Source: Protonemura montana
Lineage: Eukaryota > Arthropoda > Insecta > Plecoptera > Nemouridae
DNA length: 64,000 nucleotides
Direction of reading: 5' to 3'
Assembly: GCA_947568835.1 (NCBI GenBank)
Contig: OX387605.1
Coordinates: 12,776,418-12,840,417, forward strand
This document shows, piece after piece, positions 4,301-26,700 of this stretch (position 1 is the stretch's first letter; each line of letters starts with the position of its first letter). The position numbers and the translations under genes were made by a program. The notes under the pieces are model-generated. The model searched no databases, was not told the origin of the DNA, and worked only from the letters and a program-made list of their open reading frames with translations.

Positions 4301-5879
4301 AAAATACTGATGCAGTGCGGAGGTTGTTGTCCGGTAGGTGCAATACAAACTTAAATGCTTTTACTTGGCATCGCCGATGGGTCGTTCTGTACACCAACTT
4401 TTTCAGTTTTGCTGGAAACAGTGCGCTGTTAATTTACAAATTCAAAGTGTTTATAATATTGAGACAGGAGTAAGCTTTTGCCATGATTACTTGATTTTTA
4501 AAGAAAGCATTTTGAGTCGGATCCAAACATGAATGATATCCCTATAGGCAATACAAATTCCGTTGATTTTTATGCAATGCACTAAACCAACACTAGTAAA
4601 ACAGTGTTCAAACGTACATTTGCAACAACAGATGGTGGCTTACTTGTTCACAGGATTGGAGCGAGACGTTTACAAGCAGGCTCGTCACAGCGTTATCGAC
4701 ATGATCCTGGCAACTGAGATGACACGCCACTACGAACACCTTGCCAAGTTCGTCAATGTCTTCACGAAATCCGCGAGCCGAGACGACGACCTCGCGACCT
4801 CGGAGGTGGGCTCTAACTCGGCAGATCTCAGTCTCATGTCGACGCCAGAGAACATCAAGCTGGTCAAGAGGATGCTGATCAAGTGTGCCGATGTGTCAAA
4901 TCCCGTGCGCCCCTTGAGGATGGCTGTCGAGTGGGCGAGGCGAATTGCGGACGAATATTTTAACCAGGTACGTGCATCGCAAAACTTTCGAGAAGCTCTT
5001 GGGATATAGGGAGGATTCTGAATCATTTTAAAATATTGTTCGTTAGTTGGAAGAGTCTACGAGTATAAGGTTTTGCAATGTGGTAGTCCCACGGAGAATG
5101 AAGGGGCTGAGATGCAATTTTCTGCCTCCCTGAAACTAGGAGCAAAATCATTTGTTTCATCCCATGAGAAAAACCCATCTGAACGTGGTTAGGTGTAGCG
5201 GTTCAGGATTTAGTGGTAATGTGTAAATCGGTTGTTTCTAGTGTCTTTTACACCAAAAAAGAACCATTGTACACTGTACCAATATTTGAAAGTCTTTTAT
5301 TTTCGGAACCTCTTGTTCTTAATTCACAGTTATCGTAAAACAGATTGTGTACATATTATAGTTTAATATAGTTCTCTGTGATTTAAATAGTTTTCAAGTT
5401 TTACTAGGTTCACCGACTTGTTGTCTTACTGTTTTTCCATGTTTGGCAGACTGATGAGGAAAAAGCTAACAACCTGCCAGTTGTGATGCCCATGTTCGAC
5501 CGGGCTACGTGCTCCATTCCCAAGTCGCAGATTGGCTTCATGGACTTTATTATCAACGACATGATGGAAGCGTGGGAGGGTAAGAGAGATCTTGTGTTCT
5601 ATGCTTTTTTTCTCTCGAGTCTTGCATATTCCGTACTTTAATTTGAAACCCCTTATTATGTGTTGTTTTTCCGAGTTGTATAATTTTACCCTCGCTCTGT
5701 TTTTAGCCATAATCGAAATGCCTGAGATCCTGGCATACATGCAAGGCAACTACAAGTTCTGGAAGGAGCGTGAGGAAGAAGGAGTAACCAGCATCGACGA
5801 GCTGGTCATGACACAGAATTCGTGGAACATCAAGGAGGAGACTCACATCAACTCGAGCTCGATCCATTCGAGCCTCTAG
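1151..5879 (+). CDS. Pde8: PDE8-type 3',5'-cyclic nucleotide phosphodiesterase, 3' part (six coding exons, N-terminus outside window)
   Basis: Coding exons are 1151-1341, 1792-2070, 2499-2626, 4654-4967, 5450-5579 and 5707-5879 (stop TAG 5877-5879). Joined, they give 1215 bases, i.e. 404 residues and a stop, in frame across all junctions. The product should hydrolyse cAMP; PDE8 enzymes are high-affinity, cAMP-selective and IBMX-insensitive. Visible landmarks are the lead-in WEFNIFKLE, the metal-binding HNSTH and HDVDHPG motifs, [22 protein letters not shown], and TDEEK...[10 protein letters not shown]...SIPKSQ, which contains the invariant nucleotide-binding glutamine. These match PDE8 more closely than other PDE families from memory. 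PDE8 proteins are about 700-900 residues, so the REC and PAS half is encoded to the left of this window. Oddities: the PDE signature asparagine (HDx2Hx4N) reads as serine at the exon 2/3 junction, and the third donor is atypical. Family assignment is secure; exact borders are by eye. Confidence 0.93.
1792..2070 (+). CDS. Pde8: PDE8 exon B (metal-binding HD motifs)
   Basis: Bounded by acceptor CATTTCACAG and the consensus donor GTGAGT. It begins [14 protein letters not shown] and carries the two metal-ligand motifs HNSTHAADV and HDVDHPG, which hold the catalytic Zn/Mg site. It ends with two bases (AG) of a split codon that reads AGT (Ser) with exon C. Confidence 0.93.
2499..2626 (+). CDS. Pde8: PDE8 exon C
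   Basis: Follows acceptor TCGTTCCCAG. It encodes [16 protein letters not shown], then [12 protein letters not shown] and NIFK, all typical of PDE8. It ends with one base (G) that forms Gly with exon D. The donor reads GTTCGT, a poor match to the consensus, but shifting it breaks the frame into exon D. Confidence 0.9.
3443..3462. repeat. Poly-G homopolymer (20 bp)
   Basis: Uninterrupted run of 20 G on the plus strand within the 2-kb PDE8 intron between exons C and D. Confidence 0.95.
4654..4967 (+). CDS. Pde8: PDE8 exon D (central catalytic helices)
   Basis: Follows acceptor TTGTTCACAG and ends at donor GTACGT. It encodes [28 protein letters not shown], an acidic Ser-rich insert (about 25 residues, less conserved), then [20 protein letters not shown] and the EYFNQ end. 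The CADVSNP segment lines the active site. Intron C-D is about 2.0 kb and holds a 20-bp poly-G tract. Confidence 0.93.
5450..5579 (+). CDS. Pde8: PDE8 exon E (nucleotide-binding glutamine)
   Basis: Begins [18 protein letters not shown] after acceptor TTTGGCAG and continues [20 protein letters not shown]. The Gln of KSQ is the invariant purine-binding glutamine of the PDE superfamily. It ends in phase 1 at donor GTAAGA. Confidence 0.93.
5707..5879 (+). CDS. Pde8: PDE8 terminal coding exon
   Basis: Follows acceptor CTGTTTTTAG and completes the catalytic domain ([19 protein letters not shown]). It then has a C-terminal tail of about 37 residues that is Glu/Ser rich and ends SSSIHSSL before TAG. 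The tail looks longer than that of mammalian PDE8s as I recall them. Confidence 0.92.
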
Positions 5880-8236: not shown

Positions 8237-8710
8237 CTACTGTACGATGATGTGTGGTGCCGACAGCAGAACGGCGACAGTGGCGATCACGGTGAACAAC
8301 GTAAACACGATCAAGCAGAAACGATCGACGACCATCGCAGCAAACTTCCAGTCGCTTATGAGTTCAGCCTCTTCGTCTGCTTTGCGCATCCTGCCCGTGA
8401 TGAACATGAGCTCTCGCAGAATGCACTGCAGCTCGCGCTGAGCCGGCGAGCACGCGGTATCGTCGAGCGTAGACGCCGTCGTGCGCATGTAGGTAGATGT
8501 GGGAGTAGCTGTGCTGTTCACACTGGTCATGCAGTGACGGAAGTCGTCGTCGATGTCGAGCACGTTGGCGAGCAGGCTCTTCGACGAGCGCTCCTTCAGC
8601 TCCAGCTCCTTCATGCGGTTGCTCATCATTATTGTCTTCCGGGTTATTTTCTTACCGGGGCGGCTCATGCCGAGGAACCAGGGCAGCCATTGCAGGAACA
8701 CAGTCTTGAT
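8237..8710 (-). CDS. nAChRalpha6: nAChR exon 10 (cytoplasmic loop, TM4, stop)
   Basis: Acceptor CTTCTCTCAG after a 94-bp intron. It encodes [20 protein letters not shown], then [20 protein letters not shown], a variable Thr/Ser-rich loop, and the amphipathic MA helix [22 protein letters not shown]4 ([18 protein letters not shown]) and the conserved end SAPHIIVQ follow, with TAG at 8239-8237. Confidence 0.97.
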   Translation of the reverse strand: MKTVFLQWLPWFLGMSRPGKKITRKTIMMSNRMKELELKERSSKSLLANVLDIDDDFRHCMTSVNSTATPTSTYMRTTASTLDDTACSPAQRELQCILRELMFITGRMRKADEEAELISDWKFAAMVVDRFCLIVFTLFTVIATVAVLLSAPHIIVQ

Positions 8711-11700
8711 CTGAGAGAAGAGACATGGGTGTGTTTATCTTGGTAGAGGACGTACCAGGCTGATATATGGTGACAAAAAGGAGCTTGCGAAGAGGGATGC
8801 TCACCCACTGCGGCATCTCGTGGATGTCTGCGGTACGGTGGTGGTAGTTGAGCACGACCACGGTGAGAACCACGGAAGACGCAACCATGAACATTATGCA
8901 GTTGAAGTAGGTCCCTGCAAGGCAGCAGCAATGGGCATTCAGAGAGAGACCAACAAGGGTTGCCAACATGCGAGCTTGTCTGTTGCTTGTGCTTTTGGGA
9001 AGTTACTGCTAGTATTTTTTGAGAAATTTTTTCAACAATATGTTATACCAAAAGCAAACGGGAGTGACTTTAAGTTGCAAAGCTTGTTCGTGAAAGTTAA
9101 ATAATAATCATAATCATAGAAATAATTTTTTTTTCTGTTGGAGTTACGTTCACTTTCCAGGTTTGAGTAGATTGAGAGAGTGGACACATCGATCAAAACA
9201 AAGTAAAACACATTAACAATAATGATATTATGGCAATACATGTCGAAATAAACTCGAAAATTCCAACTAGTAATAAAACGTTCAAACAAATACAAAGTAC
9301 TTTGAAAATAATTGTTCGAGTCACGTTAAAATAACCATGTCGAATGTATGGAGCGTCTTCAAAATTGAAGACATGAAAACTTTTCGAAATTACTTGAGAC
9401 TGGATACTCGAAAAGTTGAATTCAGAAGTCGGCGAAAGAATCGTAAACAAAGAGAAAACGATCGATTAACAACTGCTCCCGAGTGGACATGTTCTTAATT
9501 GGAATTTCATTAAATTGGAGGGCTGCTAAATAGTCGGGCCAATTGTTTATGACGTTGACTTCATATTTTGTCTTTTACTGCACAAGATTTTAGCATAGCT
9601 CAACAGTTTCTTTGCTCTGCAATATTTACGAGAGTGAATAATTGTGAAAGCAAGTTATTGGAAAAAAATATATGGTTGTTTAATTAGTTGTTAATTGCCA
9701 CGTGTTTATTATTTAGTTAGATTAGAATGGCCATCGCTACTCGAATGAGTTAGAGAAGTGCATGCGATGAGCGATGCGATGGGCAAACGAAAGCTGAGAC
9801 CAGGCAATGAGATTTGGCTGCGATGCTGAAGATGACGACTCTACGCTACTGAGTTTACGAAGCCGAAAGAAAAATCTGATTCTAATGACAAGAAAATTAA
9901 TGCATTGAAAGGATGCAATATACGCATTCCAAATCGAGAAAATCTTAATAATATGTAAGAAAATATGTAAACATATTGATAGGGAGGAGATAAGAATATA
10001 TAATATGGTTGTGAGTTTTATTTTCTTGTTACAGTAATGGTCCAAGAACTTTACAACAAAGCATAATAAGTTTGCGAAACTGACTGGGTGGTTGTGGTGG
10101 TGGTGGTGGTTGTGGTGGTAGTGGTGGTTGGGTTAGTTTTTTAAACGTTGTCATTTAGTTTACCTTCAGGTTCTTACCAACGGCTCCGTCAGGATTTATT
10201 GAGGTGGTTGTTTATAACTTGGCAGGCTGCCGTTATGTGGGGAGTCTCGCCTGAACACCAACCGAAACACACATTTTAGGAATCAATTGCTTTCATACGA
10301 TCTCTTTAAGCAAACTGTGCGTTTATCAGTTTAATGGTCATTTTTCAAATACTTTGTATTAGTGGAGTTTAGTTATCCGCGGTAAGGGGATGATAATCCT
10401 TTAAAGCTCAGGTTAGAACGAGGAGGAAACGAGTTTAAACAGCAACGATAATAATTAAAAAAATAATCCAAAAACTTAAGATAAAAACTCCACAAAAATC
10501 AACAAAATTCACAATACCAGAAAACGAACAAACAAAAGGAACGCAAGAACAACGAAAAGACGCATCATAATCATAAGAATGGGACAGAGTCAGTTGATAC
10601 TTGGAAGATGAAGGGGGTTCTAGCTCGCGACATCCGTCCTCAAGCAACGCGAGGCAGACTTTTCGGCCCTGGCCTGGAACATGTGTTTCTGTAAAATGCG
10701 TCAATACACGGAGATGAGTAGACCCCATGATTGCGGTCGCAAGGCGCGAAACGTAACAGGGGTGCGAGGGGAAAACATAAATCTCGATGCAGGGGCAGAA
10801 TGGCAGGGGGTGGACGTTTAGCGGACGTAATGCTTAAATTTTGGAGGTTAGTTTTGGTACGAAACTCCATCTGTTACTCAAAGCGCGGAAGACTGACATT
10901 ATCGGCAACGCTAATCATGAACGGCATTTGTAACTCTGGTTGTCAGTAACCACACAGTGAGGTGTTGGTTTGCGAGAGATAAAGACATTGTCAACGCGAC
11001 AAACTCGATTGTCTCACTTGAAGAGATACGCGGATGTTTTGGGCAGCGAGTCTTTGCGTCGCTGTGCGGCTGCGCGGCGTACGCCCGACGGTGCGCAGGC
11101 AACGCGCACGCGTCCTACCACAACGCTGAAATGACATTTGCTTTGCGAAAACACGCAAGGAACAGAAATATTTTTGTCTTTCTTTTTAACGGAAAATGCA
11201 AGAGATTGTTAAAGCGAAAGTATAATGCCAAAAAATTGCATGTAAATTTAATTCTCAAAGCAATTTTCTCGGAGAGAATGTGTATAATATTAGTGCATGG
11301 TTATAAGCAGTCGTGAAGTTTACAGCCGAAACAAGAGGAACAAGATGAGAGTAACAATATGAATGTGGTGGATGCACCATGCTACGTCCTTTACCAGAGA
11401 ACACGAGATATGTTTGATTATTTAGGGTTTTCTTCAGATATTGCTAAATTGCGCCAAAATCCAGCCTTGCGTCCATAAAGCCACATGGTTGCGCCCATTT
11501 TTATAAGACTTGTGTGTTGATCCGTATGCACGCAAAGATCGATGTTGGCACGTGGCTTCGTTTAGTCAGACGTTGATTTATCGGTTCTCGACATGCATTT
11601 TATTTAGTCGCTTGATTTAGTTATAGCATTGTGAGTGGAGCTGATAACGGAACGCGGGCTAACCTATCAGGGGCACCGCATCTGAAACCTGAGGCAATAC

Positions 11701-14700
11701 TTGCGCCACCAATAATGAGAATACTACCAGAGACAGCAGGATTGTTATACCTGGAACACAAATCAAGTTGTCACACCTAAACGTCAGTGCCGGAAAACAC
11801 AACACACTGAAGGACCAACCGAAACGAGCGGAACGAAAAAAAACTTCTAAGAACCAGTAAAAAACATAACAAAGTAAAAACAGATGTCGAAGAGGAGGTA
11901 ATGATGGAAACAGAGAAACGATAAACTTAATGGAAAACGGAAAATTAAATCAAATTAAAAAACTCTTTGGTGATGGACCGATCGAAATTAGCGATAAGCT
12001 ATTGATTGTGTTATCATCCCCCCCTCCAGCTATCCAAGTATCAGAAATGAAACCACTGTCAAGAATGCCACAGCAAACTGCGTTCACTACCTAACAAGGG
12101 AATGGCGTCTGATACTTGGGGCAGAGTCTCTGCCACCAAGTTTAGGAAGACTGTCAGCGACAGCAGAATGGTCACGCCTGCAACAGAAGTAACTGCTTGA
12201 GAAAAACAAGACATCTTGAGAGCATCATAGGGTCGAGATTGCTTCTTTTGCGGAAGAATACAGCTGAAAAGATAGATAATGTTACACAACTTTCAAATCG
12301 ATAAGTTATAAAAAAAAAAAAAACGGAACTCTTAGTGAAAGCGTTAGGTTGATGGAATTGATGTTTTTTTTTCTCATAGACACGTCCACATTTGGGTAAC
12401 GACATAATGAAAAAGTCAGTACTCATCAAGAATCTACGTGTTACTGATGGTTTGGTCGGAAATGTTACTATATGCTGTAAATAATGTTACCGAGGGAAGG
12501 ACGCACATTCATTCGCTCACGGCGCTAACGACGCATTCCGTGTCATGCCTAGAGCCACACGTATCTAATTCGTCTTGACAGAAATACTTCGCCGTCTTCT
12601 TAAATGTCAGTGTCGCATTGACCCAGGGAGCAACACAAAATGTTGTGTGACTTTTTTTTTCATATTTTTATATGAACTGTGCGAATTTTACTGAAAAATA
12701 AAAAAATTGGTGGATGAGCCAGTTTGCTCTGCGGGCTGCGTTCAGGGGTACATTCAAATCATGGATTTTTTTCTACAAAATATTTCCATTTCCATTGAAA
12801 ATGATATCGGATTGAAACAAAAACAAATCGTATCCATTTCCCCAACGATTCAGTTGGATTGCTTGAACTTTGGGTGGAGGAGGAGCCGGTCAGATTTGCT
12901 TTGCGGGCTGCATTCTCATCCAAATGCAAAATTATGCCATAACCGATTTATATTTCCAGTAATTCGATATCGGGTTAAAAAACATATGGCACCCATTGTG
13001 AAATAAAAACATCAATTCCATAATTCCATTTGCCAATACCAATCAATAACTATAAGCTCCGTTTTTTGCAACACACTATTGGAAAAAGGCCTGCTCGAAT
13101 GACGAGATTCAATTGAAAATTACACCGAGTGGCCGACTAGTCCTGCATGGGGCACGTTATCACCTAAACCAATCCATTAATCAATTCCTGTCAGAGTATT
13201 GGGCAGCGAGCTGTGGATAAACACATATCACCGGCAACACCCCGGTGGCGCGCCGGGTCATTGGTAAGTGCACTCATCCAGTATGTGTAATGGAGGTGGA
13301 AGCGAGCAGGATGGAGCTGGCGAAGAAGTTTGGGAGAGACAACGTCGCGATATTGGTACCGTGCAACACCACCTTTCCGCTAATCACTACCTAATGGCGC
13401 TATCTTCATTAGCAGCTGGCCCTGGAAAAATGTCCCACCCGGGCATAGAGTAGCGTGGGACTTGCTAATTGACGAAGCGATACGATAGCTCTGGTTAATT
13501 AATCGCTTGATAAAGAAGGGCCGCGTCATTACGGAGGCTGCGTGCGTGCTGTGTTCGTATCCTGCTTATCGACTAACTTCCCGACCTTTATGCTGTTGAA
13601 GTGGCGAGTTAATTAAAAAGTCCCAAACTAGCCGTTGTTTTATATTGCATGCAGTGTAAGTTTTAGGGTTGTTTGCGAACCAAATTTTACTAGAACGCAA
13701 TATAATCTTCATTTGACTGGAGACCTATTTTTTTTTTACTAAATGAATATAAAAGTTTCAAGATAGTTAGATCCTTGAAGCGCAAATGGAGGTATACTAT
13801 AGTCTTACTCAATGAACCATGCTACGCATTTCTATATAGATACACATATTTCATGAAACGATCTCAGGATCATACAGGTGAAGTATATATATATAGGGCA
13901 ACATGAACACGACTGGCTTTTTAACAGGCGTTCGCGCACAAATTTGCATCTCATCTTCATACGCAAGGAGGCGAGCGTTTGTTCAGTTCTCGAAACTCGC
14001 GACTGCAAACATAATATTCCGGTCTTTGCACAACAATTCGCAGTCGCTAGTTGACTGGGTGTGTACGACCTAAATATTGGCTGGAACGGTTTTTATACCA
14101 TGTTTCACCGAAAAGCGAGCGCACAATGTTTTCAGCCACAATTTGCATGACGTGAGCTGGTGCAACGGTGCCGGAGTTTTATTCGACACCGGTGCCGCTG
14201 GCACCATATCGAATCTCGAATCTGAACTGTATGCACATGGAGGAGGCAATATGGAAATGTCAAAACGCCACGCTTACCACGGCGAGAGCAAGAAGGGAAT
14301 CAAGCTGTAATTAAAATTTATGTCACACAATAGCTTACAAAGATTTGATGCTAATTCCTTGCAAATAAAACAAGAAGTTCTAGAGACGAAGCGAGGTTGG
14401 GTTTAATGAATGCCATTCGAGAAAATCTCTGGTCCCGTCTTCCTCCAGGTCCATAAAAGGTTAAAGGGTAGTCGTTAGGTTTTGCTGCACAGAGAGACAA
14501 GGAGCTTTGCTTGAAATAAATGGCTGCTTTTCCATAAAAAAATTGGGCTCAATTTCTTACAACTAAGAACTCTTTCGTGTGGGACTTAGCGTAGCCACAA
14601 ATCACTCTGTGAAGTCGGTCTGTTCATCCCAAACTCGTGACCATGCAGGCGAAATTAACTGGACTGAATCGACCGATCAAATGGATTAGTAATTGAACCG

Positions 14701-17700
14701 AAGCTCAGTTGAGTACGGTTCGCTAGATGCTTTGGTGTCTTGACATGCGTTACCTAGTGTGAGCTTCTCTCCCGAGTCCGGTGGCAAGGTGAACCCCAGA
14801 AGCGCCATTGACGAGATGAGCACACAAGGAACGATGAGGTTGAAGAAATAGTAGAGCGTGCGTCTGCGGATCTGTATCGTGAAGGTCACGTCGACGTACG
14901 GTTCAGGGCAACATTGGTACACGATGGTGTTCTTCTTGCCGGGCATTCCTGGGGGAGGCGGAACACATCAACGACACCGCCCGTCGAGAGTCGGCCGCAG
15001 CGCACACATGGCCGTTTCGCCCCAGGCACAGAGTGCCGTTACAGATGGCGTGTCATCAGATTATGGGCTAAACTTTCCGAGAGTTTCATAAATATTACAA
15101 TTTTCTTTTTAGTTCTGACAAAGAGGCAAAGCAAAGAATGAAATTTTTTGCCAGCAAAACTCAAACGGAAGTTTTCAAACAAAGATGTTGTTTTAAAAGA
15201 AGCCGCAAAGTTATGGGAAAGCTCTACGCTGCTGACGGAATACCTATTCCCAATCAATGCGATTCGCATGCTATAGTATAAATCTGAAGTCCTTGTTATG
15301 ACAAAGCGGATTAGCTGTGATCCAGAGCCGCCGGTGCCAGAACACAGTGCTGCTGTGATTCCTTGTAAAACAATGGCTTGCTCGGCGGGAAATCAATATG
15401 GAATCACTGAAGGAAATGCTAACTAGGGGTTTGACGCCACTCACCTATTAGATACCATTCACCGTTAGTTATGAAGTCAGAAAGGTCTCCGCCCTCTAGC
15501 GAGTTGAGGACAAGGTCCAACTAGAAGCAATAACTCTTGATTAACGCAAACGTCTCCTGTAAAGGTCCACGCTAAGTACATGCATCTCAGGCAAAACCAA
15601 CACGCCCCACATTAGGTAGCGAGTCTCATGCATATTTGAATCGTCCTTGCGACTATCGACGAGCCTTCGTGCCGAGCACGTCTATCACAAAGGTGATTTC
15701 AGAAGCATAATTACTTAATCATAACGAGAGAGGCAGAAAGGTAGAGGGAGAACCGAGGAAAATCAATTCCTACTTCTCTACCGCATGCAAAGTGAAATTC
15801 TTTCTTTCTAGTTCGTTACTCCGCCCTATCTCCAGAGTCCTGATTTTCTCGATACCAGCGCGCTCGCAGGTCGACCTTGAAGACCCAGCCGTCGTGGCTT
15901 GATCGTGAGTGGATAGGTTTCCCACAGGCATCCGAAGATACGAGCGGGTTCCAAGCAACGTGCCGAAGAACCAGTTCACGGACAAATGACGGTCCTCAAC
16001 GTCGACCTGTTCGAGAGGGTTGGTTTCGTTCGATGTTGCTCCATGCAAAATGGTTTAGCCAATAACGTCGTCCCCGCTGATAGATCAAGTGCACAGAAGC
16101 AGTTAAGAGTCGATATTATTAGAATGTAAATTGTTTCGTGAGTTTTTAGTTATGGAATAATTATTAGAAGTTTGCATGATGAAGCATGGCATCAAAGTGC
16201 AGTATGATGGAGGAGAGAAGCTTTTTCCAGGAAGCACCCTATTTGCATGACTGTACAAGACTGAATAATATGTGTATATACAAGCGTTAACTGAGATAAC
16301 ATTGACGAAATGTAAAAATAAAGTATGTGTGTACATTATCGATCAGAATATAAATGTAGGAACAACGAAGATACTGTTTAATAATCATGGAAAGCAATTT
16401 TTGTCGTCGGTTCAGTTGTATATTCGAGGTGTGAGTGTTTTATGTGTATGAATATACTTGCAAAGATATTTAATAATGATCCAAAAAACGTTTGTAATGT
16501 TTTGTTTTTGTAATGTTTGTGTTCGTAGAATAGATTAAAACACACTTGGACACAAAGAATGGTCATCAGTTGATCATTTTGTACTACCTGGTTGCCGTCA
16601 TAGGTCCAGCTACCAAACTTCATGTCACAGTGTTGGTCATCAAATGGGAACCACGTAATGTCTATCTTGCATGTGCTCTTGAATATGCCCGGTGGAACGT
16701 ACAAGCAGCTACCGTTATGTCGTACCACAACGTTCGTGTGGTATGTGCCGTCGAAACCCTCATCGGCGCTAACGCACAGAACAAGGGGGTGGGACAACGT
16801 TTAATGTAAGTGTGGAAAAAACACATAGCAGAGCTATACCATTCGAAGAAGACTTTTTAGGCGCGGCTCAGGGAAAGCAAAATTCTGGCCGCGATATCGA
16901 GAGTTTGATTTAGGCGTCGCATCTGGTCGATGCTGAAAATTATGGCCAATACAATTAAGAGAGTAAACAAGTTCAATTTTTGTTAGATGTGCAAGTCAAA
17001 AATCAAAGATGGAAAACCTTTTATAAATGATCTGTTGTAAGCCACGATGTTGACGGAGGTGACCGAATTTAGAGGCATGGCAATAACTCATTTTTACCTA
17101 CTGTTTGTTTAAAGCAACTGTATATTTCTGTAGGGAAGTTGCAAACGTTACAAAAAGCAAATTAAACGTGAGACTGTAATCCCGAAGTTAAAGGAGTTCG
17201 CTCTACATGAGTATCAGGGGATTAATAAACTGTGTTTTCGCTACAAGGAGCAAGCTTAAAGGCCCATCATAAATATTGGCCAGTTGATTTGATAGGCCTT
17301 TTACTGCTATTTTTAGTTGTCCAATTGGAAACTTGTAATGGGCACTGACAATTTGACTTATAGCATAGAACATGAAAATGGCTTGGCAAACGAGTTGGGA
17401 ATGGAACGAAGCGATTGGATTGATGCTCATATTTGAAAATATCAGCATCAGCAGTTGTTATTTAGTGGAAAAAACACATACAACAATTGGAAAATATGTT
17501 ATAAGGCAGAGGAAAACAACACTGAGAAAATGTTGGCGACGGGGCAAGTAAGGAGACCCAATTGCCTTAAGAAGAAAGAAATTACTTTCTAGTCCACCTT
17601 GCTTCATTGGCTGCAAGAAAGAACTTTAGGGAAGGGGATTTTCTCAGCGAGATGTTATGAGATGCAACCATACAATGCAGTTTTATTTTAGAAAATATGT

Positions 17701-20700
17701 GCAATGCTACTGAAATTTAATTTGCATTTTAATAAGGATTTAAAATGTTATCTCTGTAGTACTACCACTGGCTGGGATTTAAGATGCCAATAAGAGGGAT
17801 ATAGTACAATGACATTCATATATGAAATTATACGTATCTTTATTATATTTATAATAATTATTTATTTTTTGTTTACAATTTTAGTATAAAAATAACCTCT
17901 ACTGACTAATTAATAGAAAAGAACAGTATTATTATTATTTCGTCAAATGCGACGATTATGGCATGTGATTTATTGGTGTCGTTTAACTTTGAATTGTTTT
18001 TGTTAAAGATTTATTCGAGACAGAGTCTTTAAGAGTCCAGTCTTCCACCCCGCAGAGCATTTTGCTAGCCGTGTCCACATCACACCCTGCAGCACCCCCC
18101 TTGCCACCCCCGGCCCACCTACCGTCATGGGAACCGGCCAGAAGTTCCCAACAACCCTTTACCCCCATTCAGACACACTTCCTTGATTTCGCACGCTACC
18201 GACAGCGCCAGCGCTAAACTACCTCAAGACAATAAACACCAAGACCAACTAGTTCACACTCTTTAGCTTTCGGAACCAGCATTTGGGCTTTGAATTTTAG
18301 AATGCGATTAATATCTATAACGACCTCATGAGAATGTTCTATAGACTTGATCAGACGAACAACCTGTGTAGGGCCGTAACTAAAATAATCCCCTCGAGTA
18401 CCAGCGCTTGGAAATGATCGCAATGCTAGTATGGCATGTTCAGGGGTGCTTCATCTTCTCGTGATCCCCGTGGACAAGGCTAAAGTGATCCTCTGCAAGG
18501 CCGAAGCCGCTTGGTGATGTGGTCTACAGAAACGGCTAGCTGGTGATTGTACTTCCCACCAAACGTTGCTACTTTTCGGTTTAGTTAGAGCATGCGTTCA
18601 GGCTGCTTGAGTCACTCGCAGTTTCCTTTATATCGGCACGTCTTTAAAACCAGGCCGCAATTAGCTGGTTTTGTTTAAAATATAAGTTCATGCAGACAAA
18701 TGTTCACAACGGTTCAGCTATTTAAGGTAACACACTTGCAGACCCCGCTGAGGCGGTGTTTAAATGCAGCTGGCTCAATCGGGATTCGATTTCAATACAA
18801 TCAATTTATTCTCATGCATTTTTGTTGTTGTTGACGTTTTTTTTTAATACTTAGCGGAGTTGATTCAGGAACATGTTGCAATGGAGATCTTTACCAGTGA
18901 GTGATTTATTTGGGCGTCAATTCGCACAAATATTGGTTGCATACCAACGTCCTTCTCGCACTTCACTGGCTGTCACACACGTGGAAGTTGAGACAGAGAA
19001 CGATAGCGAGACACACAAATGCACACATACACACACACACATTTGCCATTGGCATCACTTTTTTGCCAGCTAAGTTTGGTCTGGGGGCGGGGCACAGCAA
19101 ACGGTCCATGCTCTGCTTTACCTGTTGTACATCAGTATGTCGGGTCGCCAGATCTTGTTTGGCGTTATTCGTAAGTCTTTTACGCCGCCATATTCGCTTT
19201 CGTTCCAACGTAGGTTGTAGTCATTCCACTCCTGCAAACAGCGAAACAAATGCCAGTCAGACTCATGGCCAGCAATCGGCATCGCGTGGTCCAGAAAAAC
19301 ATGACACGATTCAGAGAGCAAATGGACCAAAAATGTCTCTAGTCCAGATTGTTTTCGAGGTTGTTTAACCCCAATTTTCTTTCAAATGGCTCTTCGTATT
19401 TGATTATAACTCACTGAGAAGACTTTTCTCTCTGAGAATTAATATGTCAAGAAGTGAGTCAACGAATAATGGTGACTCGAAGTTATCTTGAAATTAAACA
19501 ATGTTAATTAAGCCGACAACAAAAACAAAGTTTTGCGGCGACATGGAAAAAGCAGCACCGGGCTAGCCATGGCAATGCAACCCGCGACCAGATGACGTTT
19601 CCTCTTTCCTCTCCGCGAACAAGACTCGACATTCGTCGCGTGCAGACGTCCATTTGCTCTCTGTTTTATAACCAATTAATGAACCGGAAATTCAATTAAA
19701 ATTTCATTTTGCTCGCATTTTTTTAAAACAAGCAGCCAAGCAATTGAATTTCTACTTCCTGCTGTTTTAATTGTAAATCATATTCTACCATAGTACTTAA
19801 TTTCGTTGGAAGTTAATTTTACAGTTAAATGACAAAATCTATCTAAATGAAATGCACATTAAAGGTAGGTATCATTAATTATTTTCAATTCTGGTAAAAT
19901 GCAATTCCCCATTATTTATAAGTTATGCATGGGTTTGTTTTATAGCCTTAAAAGTACAGCGATCAACCAACAGGTATTTATCAATACACCTTCTACATAC
20001 ACATCCACAATTAGATCCAATTCTACTAATTGCTATATCAATAAGGCATTACAATCAACCTAAAAGCAGGCTAACATACTTATGTACTTAACTATTCTCG
20101 AATACTTACGCAGCCATTTACATTTCAACTGTCGTTCAAGCTCCATAAAGATTCAATTTGATTAATCAGCAAATTGTGAAGCAAACTTAACTGACAGAAT
20201 TGAGGAGTACGTAGGTGTATAGAAAATAAATGACTGCGTATGCTGAATAGGTATACAATGTCAATGCTCTTCTATACAGATAGATACACATCGCATGTCA
20301 CACAAATTGACGCTTCGGTAGGCACACTGATACATCGACACTGCAGTTGGCAGCCATGCAAAGAGAAAGTTGGAAAGTCACTGCTACTAGCGCACTATGG
20401 TGGTACAACGATGAAACATCACAACAATGGCATGCGCTTGGCTTGTAACGGTCTTCTCTGGGAGGATATCAAGGGGTTATTGTTTACAGGCTTATTGTCA
20501 TTTTATTTGTTCATGTTTAAGTTTATTTTTAGCTGCTTCGTGTTAATTATGTGAGCCAATTAATTTCACCCACCCCCTTCTTGTCACAGAAGAAAACGAT
20601 GCTGTCTATACAATTTAAATAGTTATAGGTGCCTGATGTTCACCCCCTTTATTTTACACCCAGAAATATTTATCCAATCAGTGGGAAAATAAAATCGGAA

Positions 20701-23700
20701 TTTATTAAATAATTTCCGATAAAAATACAAATCATCTAATTAATTATTACAATTATCTCATTAACTTTACATTATGTGGTGGGAAAGAGCAATGAACGTA
20801 TACAACTCATGTTGGCCCGGAGCAATGGAACATTTTAAGCCCCCTCCCCCCACCCTAATAGTTGTTTTAGTTCTACAGCACTGTTGCAAGAGAAACAACA
20901 ACGGGCCTGGATGACAGCGGACTAGAACAAGTAATTGATGGTTCTGAAGCATGTTTCTCTCCCAAATAACTGTTTTTTTTTTTTTCGTTTAAAGAGACAA
21001 GTTTATTACTTAGTAAGTCGCCGACGGTTAGGTAGCTGTTTTAGGTAGTGCACACACACGGCAGTGGAGGTAGAGGCTGCTCTACGAAACAGAATTTGTC
21101 GCGCGGCCTGATTCTCTTGAGGCAAGAGGCAGTCACCGCGACCTGCACATAGGCTCAAGCCTAAAGGACATTTTCAGCAGAAAAAAAAATACCATGGCAA
21201 TGCATGTCACATGCTACGGGTTTGGTACCACGCTGTGAGAAATGGTGGGAGAGCTCATAACCGCGCAGATTCAAAGAAAAATTATGAGGTTGTTCCCGAC
21301 GGATAAATATACACTTTTTACCGAGTTACACAATGACACGACAGCTAAGAGCAACATGTGAATTTTCGATTTTATAAAGAAACACATGCTTAATTACCTA
21401 CGTTAGCAAATTTACTTTATGCAAAATCTAAGCTACCCATTATATGGACGACCTGATAGGTACTGCTAACTCTGTCCATGACTTCAGCGAATCAAACCTA
21501 AAAATTACTCTCAAAGGTTAGGAAATTAATTATACATCTACCAAACGACGTTAGAGTCTTGATGTAAGTGTGAACGTGCAGAATGGTAATATATTACCTA
21601 CGTCTCAACAGCTATTACAAGGTAAATAAGCTTGAGGGGCAATAAAGCTACTTACTCTCAAATTACGATAAAATGCAAAGCGGTATGATACACGTGAAAT
21701 GTGTCTGCATGAAAGATTAACTCGCTGTGATATATTAAATGTATTGTTCTCAATTGTGCATACTTCCAAAAATTAGGTCGGTTTGAATGCAAATTCTTGT
21801 TTGATAACGAGAATACGAAATGTGTTTTCGGCGTCAGACGTGTATATGTGTGTATAAGAAGGGGTACTGCATTTGTAAAGGTAATCTGTTTGAAAGCCCT
21901 GCGAGCTTGCTCCTTTAGAGAGATGGCATGGCCCACCGAGAGCAGCCAGCGTGCCGCTCGAAAATCAATAGCATGACAATTCTCTCTCGCGCGTCCGCCT
22001 GAAACAGTGCCGACGCCGCCGCCGCCGCCGCGACGCTGTTAGCGCCGTCGGTCGCGTGTTTCTCACCGGAGTAACCGGGTTAGCATCCATCAATGATATG
22101 CTCCTCTGTTCTCTCTGTGTTTCTCAGATATATACGTGCTATTAGCTTTGTGTTTCTTTAATGAGTCAACGCCCTCAGGGCTGTCGACCGTCATTAGCTG
22201 GCTGTACGGACCACGTGTGAATAGGCCGGTAATGAGAGACTCCGTTTAGCGGCGGAGTTTTTCGCTGCATCCGATTCATCGCCGTTGCGAAGCGTCGGTG
22301 CCGCGTTTATACTTAAAAAAGATGCGACAGGGGATATAATATAGACACGTGTAGGTAATTGTAGCATTGAAACAGCATTGCCATAGGAAGGAGTAATTGT
22401 ATGTATTATTGTAGTACTTAGTAGTAATAGTTGCAGTGGAAGTAGTAATAATAATATTAGCAATAATAAATTATGATAATTTCAAATCACATTAAAGAAA
22501 TATTACGATTACGAAAAGTTACGAATTACTTTCAACAAGTTCTACTTTGAAAGAAGTATAACTGAAGAAGTAAAATAATATTAGAGTAAGTATAATAGTA
22601 TTAATATGATGGATGAGAAAGAGAGAGATAGTAGTACATTCTGCCGTGTGTGTTTTTAATACGAATTGACTGGTTAACACTTACCAAGGAAAGCCAAATA
22701 TTTGTTATTAGGAGTTGATTCTTCTCGTCCTATTGCAAGACACAACAAAAAGGGAAACAATCGTTTGTTAGTCACTGGACAGGACTCATGCACACGACGT
22801 TGACGACGACGACGAAGACCATCATCACGCACACAGACACGCATTGCCGCAGTCACGCAGCCGGGACGAGAACAGCCCTAAGCACGCCTACGCATTTCAT
22901 TTGAGTGTCACGCTAAATTGGCGCGACTCGGACGCAATATGCGGCGCAAATTTCCAAGATCCCCGCGGCAATTCTCGTCCCGCCTCGTGTTCGCTTTGAA
23001 CAGCTGAGCCCCGGCATCGACGGCCCACAGCCAATGAGCGCACAGCAATGGCGGCCGAAATGCCACGTACCACAATAACCAAGAAACGAGGTCAACGCGA
23101 GGCTGCCGCCACGGAGACCAAATCTCAGCGCTACCGCAGACAATTTGTTTACTGGGCCGTTTGGCCACGACACCATCTCGTGGGAAGGTACGCGCAGAAC
23201 GTAGCGACTGAGATTGAGTTCCTGTTTGCAAGCCTCCTCATTGACCTGGCGTTTTAGCACACGCATCACGTCGAATAGGGGTGGGGTGGGAAGATCTCCC
23301 CGTGTCGCCCTCGGACACTACTTACCAAATTCAACCAAGCGTTTGTCGTGAGAATTTGATTCTTTTCGTCCTAGAAGAAGGGAAGAGAAATAATACATTT
23401 GGTCATAAAAGTTGACGGTAGAATCGGGGTACCTACAGTGCTGGGTGATCGCGATTGGTCACGACGTGCTCGGATTTAATGTCAACTTGATTCTAATTTG
23501 CAAAGCCGCGTCGATCAATCGGGGCTTGGAGCACTTAGCCCGGCGTCTTACCCGGTTAGTGCTCGCTATTCAAGAAGAATAATGGCGTACCACGGAGCAG
23601 CCGATACAGACTAGCGAGACACCAACGAGCAACCGCGCCACAGATTTTGCGACATTCTCCATTTACCACAGCGCAAAGTGGTACTTTATATGAATAGTAT

Positions 23701-26700
23701 GTTTCTCGCAAATTCGCCCCTTCTGTTAAAAATGTCGATATGAACTTCTTGACATATTACCAATTAGGTTCCTTTAAGCTCACAGCGGAGAAGTCTTCGT
23801 CTGGAAAGCGCTTGCTATATAGGTACCTCAGTATGCGCGTTGAGCAAAAAGCTTTTGTGCCAAAGACAAAACGGGGGGGGGGGGGGGGGGGGGGGGGGAA
23901 GAACGCAGCCGCCGATAATGCGCCCCGGCCAATATCGGCAGGCAAAAACCGCCCTGCTACGAGAAATGAGCTAAAGTCAACGCCTTGGTACAAAGAACAC
24001 GAACACGAGGATAGGGTTTTGGCCAGACTGGCTAAAACGATGATGACCCAAGCAATTACAAGGACGTGTGTGGGATTCAGAAAAGTGCGTAATGATGGAC
24101 AGATTTCAAAATTCAGTCTGTAGCAGCGAGTAGAATGCATGGTCGGTGTAATCGAGTTAGTTCTCTCATTAGAGTAAGATGCAAAGCCACGGCAGTAATC
24201 AGATTACAGCTGGAAATCAGGGCAAACATTAGTGAGTGTCATGATATGGTTAATATGGTATGGGATTCGATCAAATGTGAAGGATCCAAGTTGGCTCCAA
24301 GCCTCTAACCCTAACCCTTAGTCAGCCACGTTGCTCTGCTTGTAATAACCGAGAACAACCTATCAGATTTCTGCTCTAGAGGCAACGTGTTGCAAAGTGT
24401 TGTATGCAAGCATGAAATGAAACGAGGCAAACTATTCATTTAATTGCAGTTGGCAAACGTCAAATGAGCGCATTTTATGTAAATACATCATCCCATTAGT
24501 TGTCACACGATGCATTCAGCCACACACTCGAGCGTCCAACGATTCTGGCCGAATGCAGCTTGCACATATTTGCATCACTGCAGCGCGCGTTTACTGCCCA
24601 CTCGATTGTATAAAGATTGAAACCGACATGTCGTGCCGTCCGAGCTTCGATAAATCGTTCCAGAATTGCTGAATGGCCACTTTCAAAGCAAACTTGCTCA
24701 AACTTTCCACGGGGGGAGAAACAAAATCAACGTCTTGTGTTGTGGTGTCGTGTTTTCGTGCGTCCCAAACAACCCCGTTCCCTCTCTGGTCTCTCTGCAC
24801 ACAGGAGACATGGGACAGGAGACATGTCAAGACAGTCTCGTCAATAATATATCGGCGTTGCTTCTACAATGGCCAGCACCGGGATCCGCTACGGTAAGAT
24901 TGACTGACTTAATCGCCGATGCTCCGTGCTACGCTCGGTTAACTTCGTCTGACTGCTTCCAGAATCATTTTTTCCACCAATGTGATTTCGAAGAAAGATA
25001 TGATCGCTGAGTCAGCTCGTTCGACAACTTCATCGAAAGAAATTCTCGACGCAATCTATGTTCGCGATTATCTTATTTTAAACGTTTTTTCGCGGCGAGC
25101 AGAGAGTTTCCTTTATGAATAATGATCGAAATCGGCTGCTGATTTCCTCTGAAAGGGCGGCTGGGATGGTAAGAGCCTTGCAAGTGCCAACGAGCGATCA
25201 AGCGCTCGAAGCTACGCAAGTCAAGTGTGTTTGTGTGAAAAGCCATGTCCCCTCTAAAAGTTGAAACATATTATTATTAGTCAAGATCAACGTGCCGAAA
25301 CCCTGGAAAAGTGTGTGTATTAAACAACCTCCTCTCTCAACATCATACGGGAAAGTGTCAAATAATCGTTACTTCATTTCCATCGCACTTTAAAAGCGAG
25401 TGTTAACGTTTTGATATATTACACATATGCAAAAGTGAGTCACTCTAATAATTCTTTCAAACAATGACACTCATCGTGACAAATGAACTTGGCTTTTGAA
25501 ATGATGACTGTAATCCAATGTTCTCTTTCGACACCAATTCAGAGGGTACGTGTGTGTGGCAGTTAATCGTCAGGAGGGGCAGGTTAGGGAAGTAACTCAC
25601 CACGTCGATGATCTGCTGCAATGTGAGACCAAACTTCACCTCGAGGGGCTCCGACTCGTTCGCCACGGGCCGTTCTAACGTGTTGTAGATGCCGAGGAGG
25701 TAGTTGAGGAGACGTCGCTCGTGAGGGCCCTGCATGCTGCCTAGAACATACAAACAGGATGAACGCTTAGTGGTTATTCCATACTGGGCTAACTGCTGGC
25801 TCCTAAACAGATTGCCATGTCAATTTGGCTAGAGTAAAGCCTGGAAACAATTTACAAATGAACTACACGGCTTTGAGAGCCATAACCTGGCCAAATCAAC
25901 GACGTTGCAATAAATAGTAAATAATCAGTATGTTTGCAAATTGTCGAGCGATTCCTATACCTGCCAATCCATTAACAGAAATATATCATATTATTAAAAT
26001 GATAAAAGTAGTTCTATTAAGATAATAACAGAACAATTTACTTGATTGTTGTTCCGCTTAGTACAAAATGCGGCGGCAACGGATAAGCTTTTGTACCATG
26101 AAGCAACTATCCTGCGGCTCGGTTATGATAAAACTGCACAGATCTGTACTCCTGAACGTTGTTCTCATTAATCCAAACCAGGTTTAAAGCCCAGTTTCCG
26201 GGAGTCTCAAATGTGGCGTTGGTGGAGGTGCCGGGATGCAATTGCGCCACGAGCTTTCGTGGAACCGTTGAAAGCGCCGACAGTGTTTTTCATCCAAGAA
26301 TGCATTGATTTCACGTCATCTCGCAGATGGAAGTCATAAAATGGTTCTATCTTCATACTTCTGGCTGTCAGCGCACAAAGCAGTGTTTCGCTCCCTTTTC
26401 TTTCTGTCGCAGTTTTCTTTTTATTGCGTTTCCTCTCAAAAGAACTCGGGCGGAACTCAGATCAGAAGAAAACACAATATCTTAATAAATGAGAAAGCAG
26501 TTTGCCTCGATTTAATTCAATCGCGTTTTCTTCTAATGAATGAAACGCTGATAAATGAAAACCTTCCAATTTCTCTCGACCCCGCAAGTTTTCAAGTCTC
26601 TCGCTTGCTCGCACGCATATGTGACTAGATTACCTAATCACTCTTTGATGAGCAAGTAATTTCACTCGTCGTCGCCGCCGTCACCGACGTCGACGACGAC

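Follow-up and report, generated by a model that had tools for sequence, protein, structure and literature searches.

The 64,000-nucleotide stretch of the stonefly Protonemura montana genome analyzed here (the window; C3:12776418-12840417 of the 258-Mb assembly GCA_947568835.1, C3 being contig OX387605.1) carries on its minus strand a gene for a nicotinic acetylcholine receptor (nAChR) alpha subunit in which the pore-lining second transmembrane segment (TM2) is encoded twice, by two tandem exons that we call A and B. We propose, with a probability of roughly 0.7, that A and B stand in for each other as exon 8 of an alpha7-like, cation-conducting subunit belonging to the insect alpha5/alpha7 type, and that the choice between them would tune the charge of the outer ring of the pore. 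We infer from the sequence that each exon is in use, that a transcript takes only one of them, that the choice affects the channel and that the gene is of the alpha5/alpha7 type.

Exon A (12091..12177, minus strand; positions given without a contig are those of the window) and exon B (11664..11750, minus strand) are each 87 nucleotides long, share the same phase, lie 340 nucleotides apart (spacer 11751..12090, minus strand) and each encode the whole TM2 helix. This is the arrangement that the original prediction described, and both the splice limits and the translation agree with it. Each exon is preceded by an AG acceptor and followed by a GT donor (GTAGTG for A, GTTAGC for B). The reading frame of both is fixed by exon 7 and opens one base before each exon, that base being the last of exon 7; A and B are both open in it. 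With the lysine of the GEK motif numbered 0', eight of the 29 residues change from A to B: V5'I, T12'V, L15'S, N16'L, E20'Q, T21'V, I29'V and L32'I, and Leu9' is common to the two. Four of these changes (12', 15', 16' and 20') and the retained Leu9' had been named in the original prediction, and all of them stand. A and B are identical at 57/87 nucleotides and 21/29 amino acids, and a tblastn search with A recovers B at E 4.5e-11 in 94 kb (the window together with 30 kb from around the paralogue described below); at the level of sequence, a chance likeness of A and B is excluded. The nonsynonymous and synonymous divergences between them (NG86) are dN 0.257 and dS 1.506, the latter near-saturated, giving dN/dS of ~0.17. 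These values mark A and B as old copies under selective constraint and count against a recent duplicate of the exon introduced in assembly.

The gene is identified as an alpha7-like nAChR alpha subunit by similarity to alpha7 over its whole length, by the vicinal cysteines of loop C (YQCC) and by GEK before TM2; for the proteins with A or with B, the top structure matches are vertebrate alpha7 nAChR chains (E ~1e-75). What would be the consequence of exchanging one exon for the other? As either exon encodes TM2 in full, transcripts containing A or B alone would be expected to give a normal subunit. GEK comes from exon 7 in both forms, and for this reason neither cation selectivity nor the charge of the intermediate ring should change. 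Exon choice would alter the outer ring (E20' or Q20') together with positions 12', 15', 16' and 21'. A pentamer would have an outer-ring charge of -5 when every subunit is of the A form and of 0 when every subunit is of the B form, with steps between, and this stepped charge would tune conductance and calcium entry.

According to a published model, calcium permeability of vertebrate nAChRs is set mainly by the charge at 20', a position at which the alpha subunits of vertebrates are stated to be always negative (PMC5447003). The ring charges of the A form at -4', -1', 20' and 27' are those of alpha7, and B departs in charge at 20' only. Since all charged rings except 20' equal those of alpha7, the five-ring model predicts, across phyla, a fractional calcium current of 10.35, 6.16, 3.59, 2.07, 1.19 and 0.68% for zero to five B subunits; the formula as applied here reproduces three of the values tabulated with the model. 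Its one-ring form gives 14.1% for five A and 3.3% for five B subunits. A genome search yielded 13 TM2 exons, a lower bound, of which ten carry E at 20', one D (exon E4 of the paralogue), one K (a beta1-like gene) and one Q, this last being B, the sole neutral 20' residue among the 13 read (at least 13 in the genome). A single E-to-Q change against otherwise alpha7-like rings would constitute a natural test of the share of the outer ring in calcium entry.

Exons 2-10 of the window gene span 25729 to 8237 on the minus strand; exon 1 was not located. Exon 2 (25601..25729), with an uncertain 5' limit, encodes the start of the ligand-binding domain. It is followed by two 45-nucleotide copies of exon 3, x (23326..23370) and y (22685..22729), both recognised by AG/GT limits, tblastn and class comparison, and then by exon 4 (19122..19231), exon 5 with the Cys-loop (16588..16768), exon 6 (15445..15520) and exon 7 (14754..14948), which encodes loop C with YQCC, TM1 and the GEK motif of the intermediate ring. 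Beyond A and B lie exon 9 (8805..8914), for the TM2-TM3 loop and TM3, and exon 10 (8237..8710), for the TM3-TM4 loop, TM4 and the stop codon, all of these exons being on the minus strand. The gene has the features of a tandem TM2 cluster as in insect alpha6: neighbouring full-TM2 exons that agree in length and phase, a form without the 20' Glu, and a companion pair of exon 3 copies. When exon 3 is taken as x, y, both or neither and exon 8 as A, B, both or neither, each of the 16 resulting combinations is open through exons 2-10 as far as the stop codon.

Both donors had been called weak in the original prediction, which suggested that this could help a regulated choice. Scored in bits with a donor matrix, the donors of A and B are indeed weak (0.29 and 1.31), but the weakness is not special to them, because eight of the nine exon-7/exon-8 donors of this gene and its paralogue fall below 2.7, including that of window exon 7 at 1.99. 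Among the other donors scored, that of window exon 9 reaches 2.6, and seven from exons 2, 3 and 4 (for the paralogue, exons 2 and 3 only) range from 4.1 to 6.6.

The paralogue, an alpha6-like gene, runs from C3:12863201 onward on the plus strand, head-to-head with the window gene and with ~61 kb between the first located exons. Exon lengths of 45, 45, 110, 181, 76, 195, 87 and 110 are identical in the two genes. On the plus strand it holds exon 3 copies at C3:12866226 and C3:12866837, two 195-nucleotide exons for loop C and TM1, 7a (C3:12872602-12872796) and 7b (C3:12873047-12873241), which are identical at 42/64 amino acids, and four TM2 exons: E1 (C3:12874737), E2 (C3:12876248-12876331, 84 nucleotides), E3 (C3:12878223) and the last, E4 (C3:12878895-12878981). 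E2 has lost one codon in the TM2-TM3 loop and has D for G at 4', with AG/GT sites and frame intact. E4 carries S15', L16' and D20', so that the site is altered and the negative charge retained. Whichever of 7a and 7b is joined to whichever of E1-E4, the frame from exon 2 to the end of exon 8 stays open in all eight cases when a single exon 3 copy is used. The paralogue resembles the window gene in its exon lengths, its two exon 3 copies and its several TM2 exons with a non-Glu form last; it differs in having two copies of exon 7 and four TM2 exons, the last of them negative at 20'. For alpha6, the literature consulted lists clusters at exons 3 and 8 only. A further nAChR gene, probably beta1-like, with K20' and V12', lies at C3:12912000-12920000 on the same strand, ~30 kb past the paralogue, which places three nAChR genes within ~135 kb.

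Are the exon copies older than the two genes that hold them? Sequence comparison favours this order of events. A matches E3 at 26/29 residues, and between the two genes the exon 3 copies of one class are the most alike (y-y 14/15 and x-x 12/15, against 11/15 for each of the four other pairs). In a tree of 11 TM2 exons A groups with E3 (62/94), and of the eight sites at which A and B differ, six are unlike in E3 and E4 as well (hypergeometric p 0.018). A tree of concatenated exons 7 and 8 joins window 7+A to paralogue 7b+E3 (97/95) and rejects two alternatives (p-AU 0.029 and 0.037); it has 6 rows, 93 columns and one long branch, leaves out E2, E4 and B, and joins 7a to E1 and 7b to E3, a choice made after the identities were known. 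An alternative hypothesis, for which these same four patterns (exon 3 classes, A+E3, common difference sites and concatenates) make difficulty, is that each of the two genes duplicated its TM2 exon independently and that the likeness of B to E4, in S15', L16' and the lack of Glu at 20', is convergence. We regard it as doubtful. It draws on the identity of B to E4 at 19/29 residues but to A at 21/29, and on the tree of TM2 exons, which has no well-supported branch, gives B+E4 50/81 and does not reject a grouping of A with B (p-AU 0.30). For exon 7 alone, window exon 7 groups with 7b (88/89) and neither alternative is rejected (p-AU 0.12 and 0.13), and plain identity favours 7a (52/64, vs 47/64 for 7b).

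The age of the copies can be extended to a fuller history, which we advance tentatively. The arrays of exons 3, 7 and 8 would predate the split of alpha6-type from alpha5/alpha7-type genes, with an ancestor that held an array like 7a-7b-E1..E4; the window gene would have kept only the 7b/E3/E4 kind as its 7, A and B, and by way of a neutral outer ring its pore would switch from calcium-rich to calcium-poor and back. If this is so, the alpha6-like gene still holds both kinds and could make TM1-TM2 modules of either type, and the neutral outer ring of the window gene would be unusual for an alpha subunit. A splice-controlled pore switch would then be an old property of the receptor, later lost from one gene.

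Several points weigh against the proposal that A and B are exclusive alternatives that tune the pore. Joint inclusion of A and B keeps the frame, as does skipping of both; the 340-nucleotide spacer is not evidently too short, and the introns are both GT-AG. Mutual exclusivity is thus not enforced by anything in the genome sequence and would need a regulator. Intron pairing as a selector between A and B gave no clear signal in six region pairs with 15 shuffles each, in which one pair lay just below all shuffles (-34.4 vs -34.1), one tied with the lowest shuffle and four were ordinary. Mutations near 16'-17' of the alpha7 M2 affect calcium permeability, and N16'L could shift calcium entry in the direction opposite to E20'Q. 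Vertebrate receptors supplied the data for fitting the charge model, and in its five-ring form three constants, besides the scale constant, have p > 0.05 (PMC5447003). Furthermore, among the exon 8 forms of insect alpha6, 8c is used least and conserved least and was not seen in silkworm clones (PMC1919356), and for this reason B may hardly be used. The same rarity of 8c would suit a different and improbable reading, that the gene uses only A and that B is a relic, an old duplicate no longer spliced; the degenerate-looking E2 of the paralogue, one TM2-TM3 loop codon short, points the same way. However, B has intact AG/GT sites and no stop codon, and its dN/dS against A at near-saturated dS is not what would be expected of a dead exon that old, which should decay.

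The window gene is probably an insect alpha5/alpha7-type paralogue and not alpha6, because its neighbour is the nearer of the two to a sequence taken as Drosophila alpha6 in all five exons compared (neighbour vs window gene: 91% vs 72% for exon 2, 89% vs 78% for exon 4, 94% vs 90% for exon 5, 90% vs 68% for exon 6, and 95%, from copy 7a, vs 83% for exon 7), and because its TM3 and C-terminus probably resemble those of Drosophila alpha5/alpha7. A first reading of the window gene as alpha6 was dropped after the neighbour proved nearer in this comparison. The original prediction took B to differ from insect forms; with one fly form, the sole insect form compared, B is identical at 18/29 residues. 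That the window gene is instead a second alpha6 gene, a lineage-specific duplicate whose exon 8 cluster is the usual one of alpha6, is quite improbable: equal exon lengths, the same two clusters in both genes and the provisional nature of the comparators speak for it, but the five exons, the TM3 and C-terminus and the wide divergence of the exon copies of the two genes at synonymous sites speak against it.

Elsewhere in the window, an open frame at 4548-5009 on the plus strand resembles, as recognised by eye, part of a cyclic-nucleotide phosphodiesterase, and a search of the whole window against Rfam at the gathering score returned no matches. The smallest contig of the assembly (C34:1-15885) is the mitochondrial genome, with tRNA-Leu(UAA) between cox1 and cox2, the orders I-Q-M, W-C-Y and K-D, and a tRNA-Lys with anticodon CTT; its gene order corresponds to the ancestral pancrustacean ground pattern.

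Among known systems the closest is insect alpha6, which has alternative exons 3a/3b and 8a/8b/8c (PMC1919356) and thus its clusters at the positions, exons 3 and 8, that are duplicated in the window gene (PMC1919356, PMC8505678). In Tribolium the 8c form replaces the conserved Glu, and alternative exons are there named for alpha4 and alpha6 only (PMC2064938); the alpha6-like exon 8 pattern suggested by the original prediction, including a known form that loses this Glu, is borne out by that source. The alpha6 cluster shares with the window gene same-phase tandem TM2 exons, an exon 3 pair and one form without the 20' Glu, and the comparison of exon 8 forms is by description, as the published residues sit in figures. 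The window gene differs in that it looks like a paralogue of the alpha5/alpha7 type, that its exon 8 has two forms where alpha6 has three, and that one of these carries Q at 20'. For Drosophila, the entry for alpha7 in a review table of alternative splicing is 'Not Reported' and that for alpha5 names nothing but cassette exons, and the text of the same paper loosely extends 'these changes' to alpha4, alpha5 and alpha7 (PMC8505678). The open-access literature available to us, in which sequences sit in figures, did not report clusters at exons 3 and 8 for any gene of the alpha5/alpha7 type; the TM2 peptide strings found no match in the text of papers, and the portions of the crustacean and tick literature at hand do not mention such nAChR exons, a weak absence. 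Alternative TM2 exons, known for alpha6, thus appear to be undescribed for an alpha5/alpha7-type gene. Silkworm alpha8 also has alternative exons, and its exon 7, which encodes TM2 and TM3, is like A and B in that alternative exons swap the pore helix; it is unlike them in belonging to another subunit, in the larger size of the exon and in copies that are 86% identical and for that reason are thought to be recent (PMC2045683). Vertebrate alpha7, which provides the nearest solved structures, is like the A form in loop C, in GEK and in the charge of every TM2 ring, and differs from the window gene in a constitutive TM2 exon with E20' (PMC1919356).

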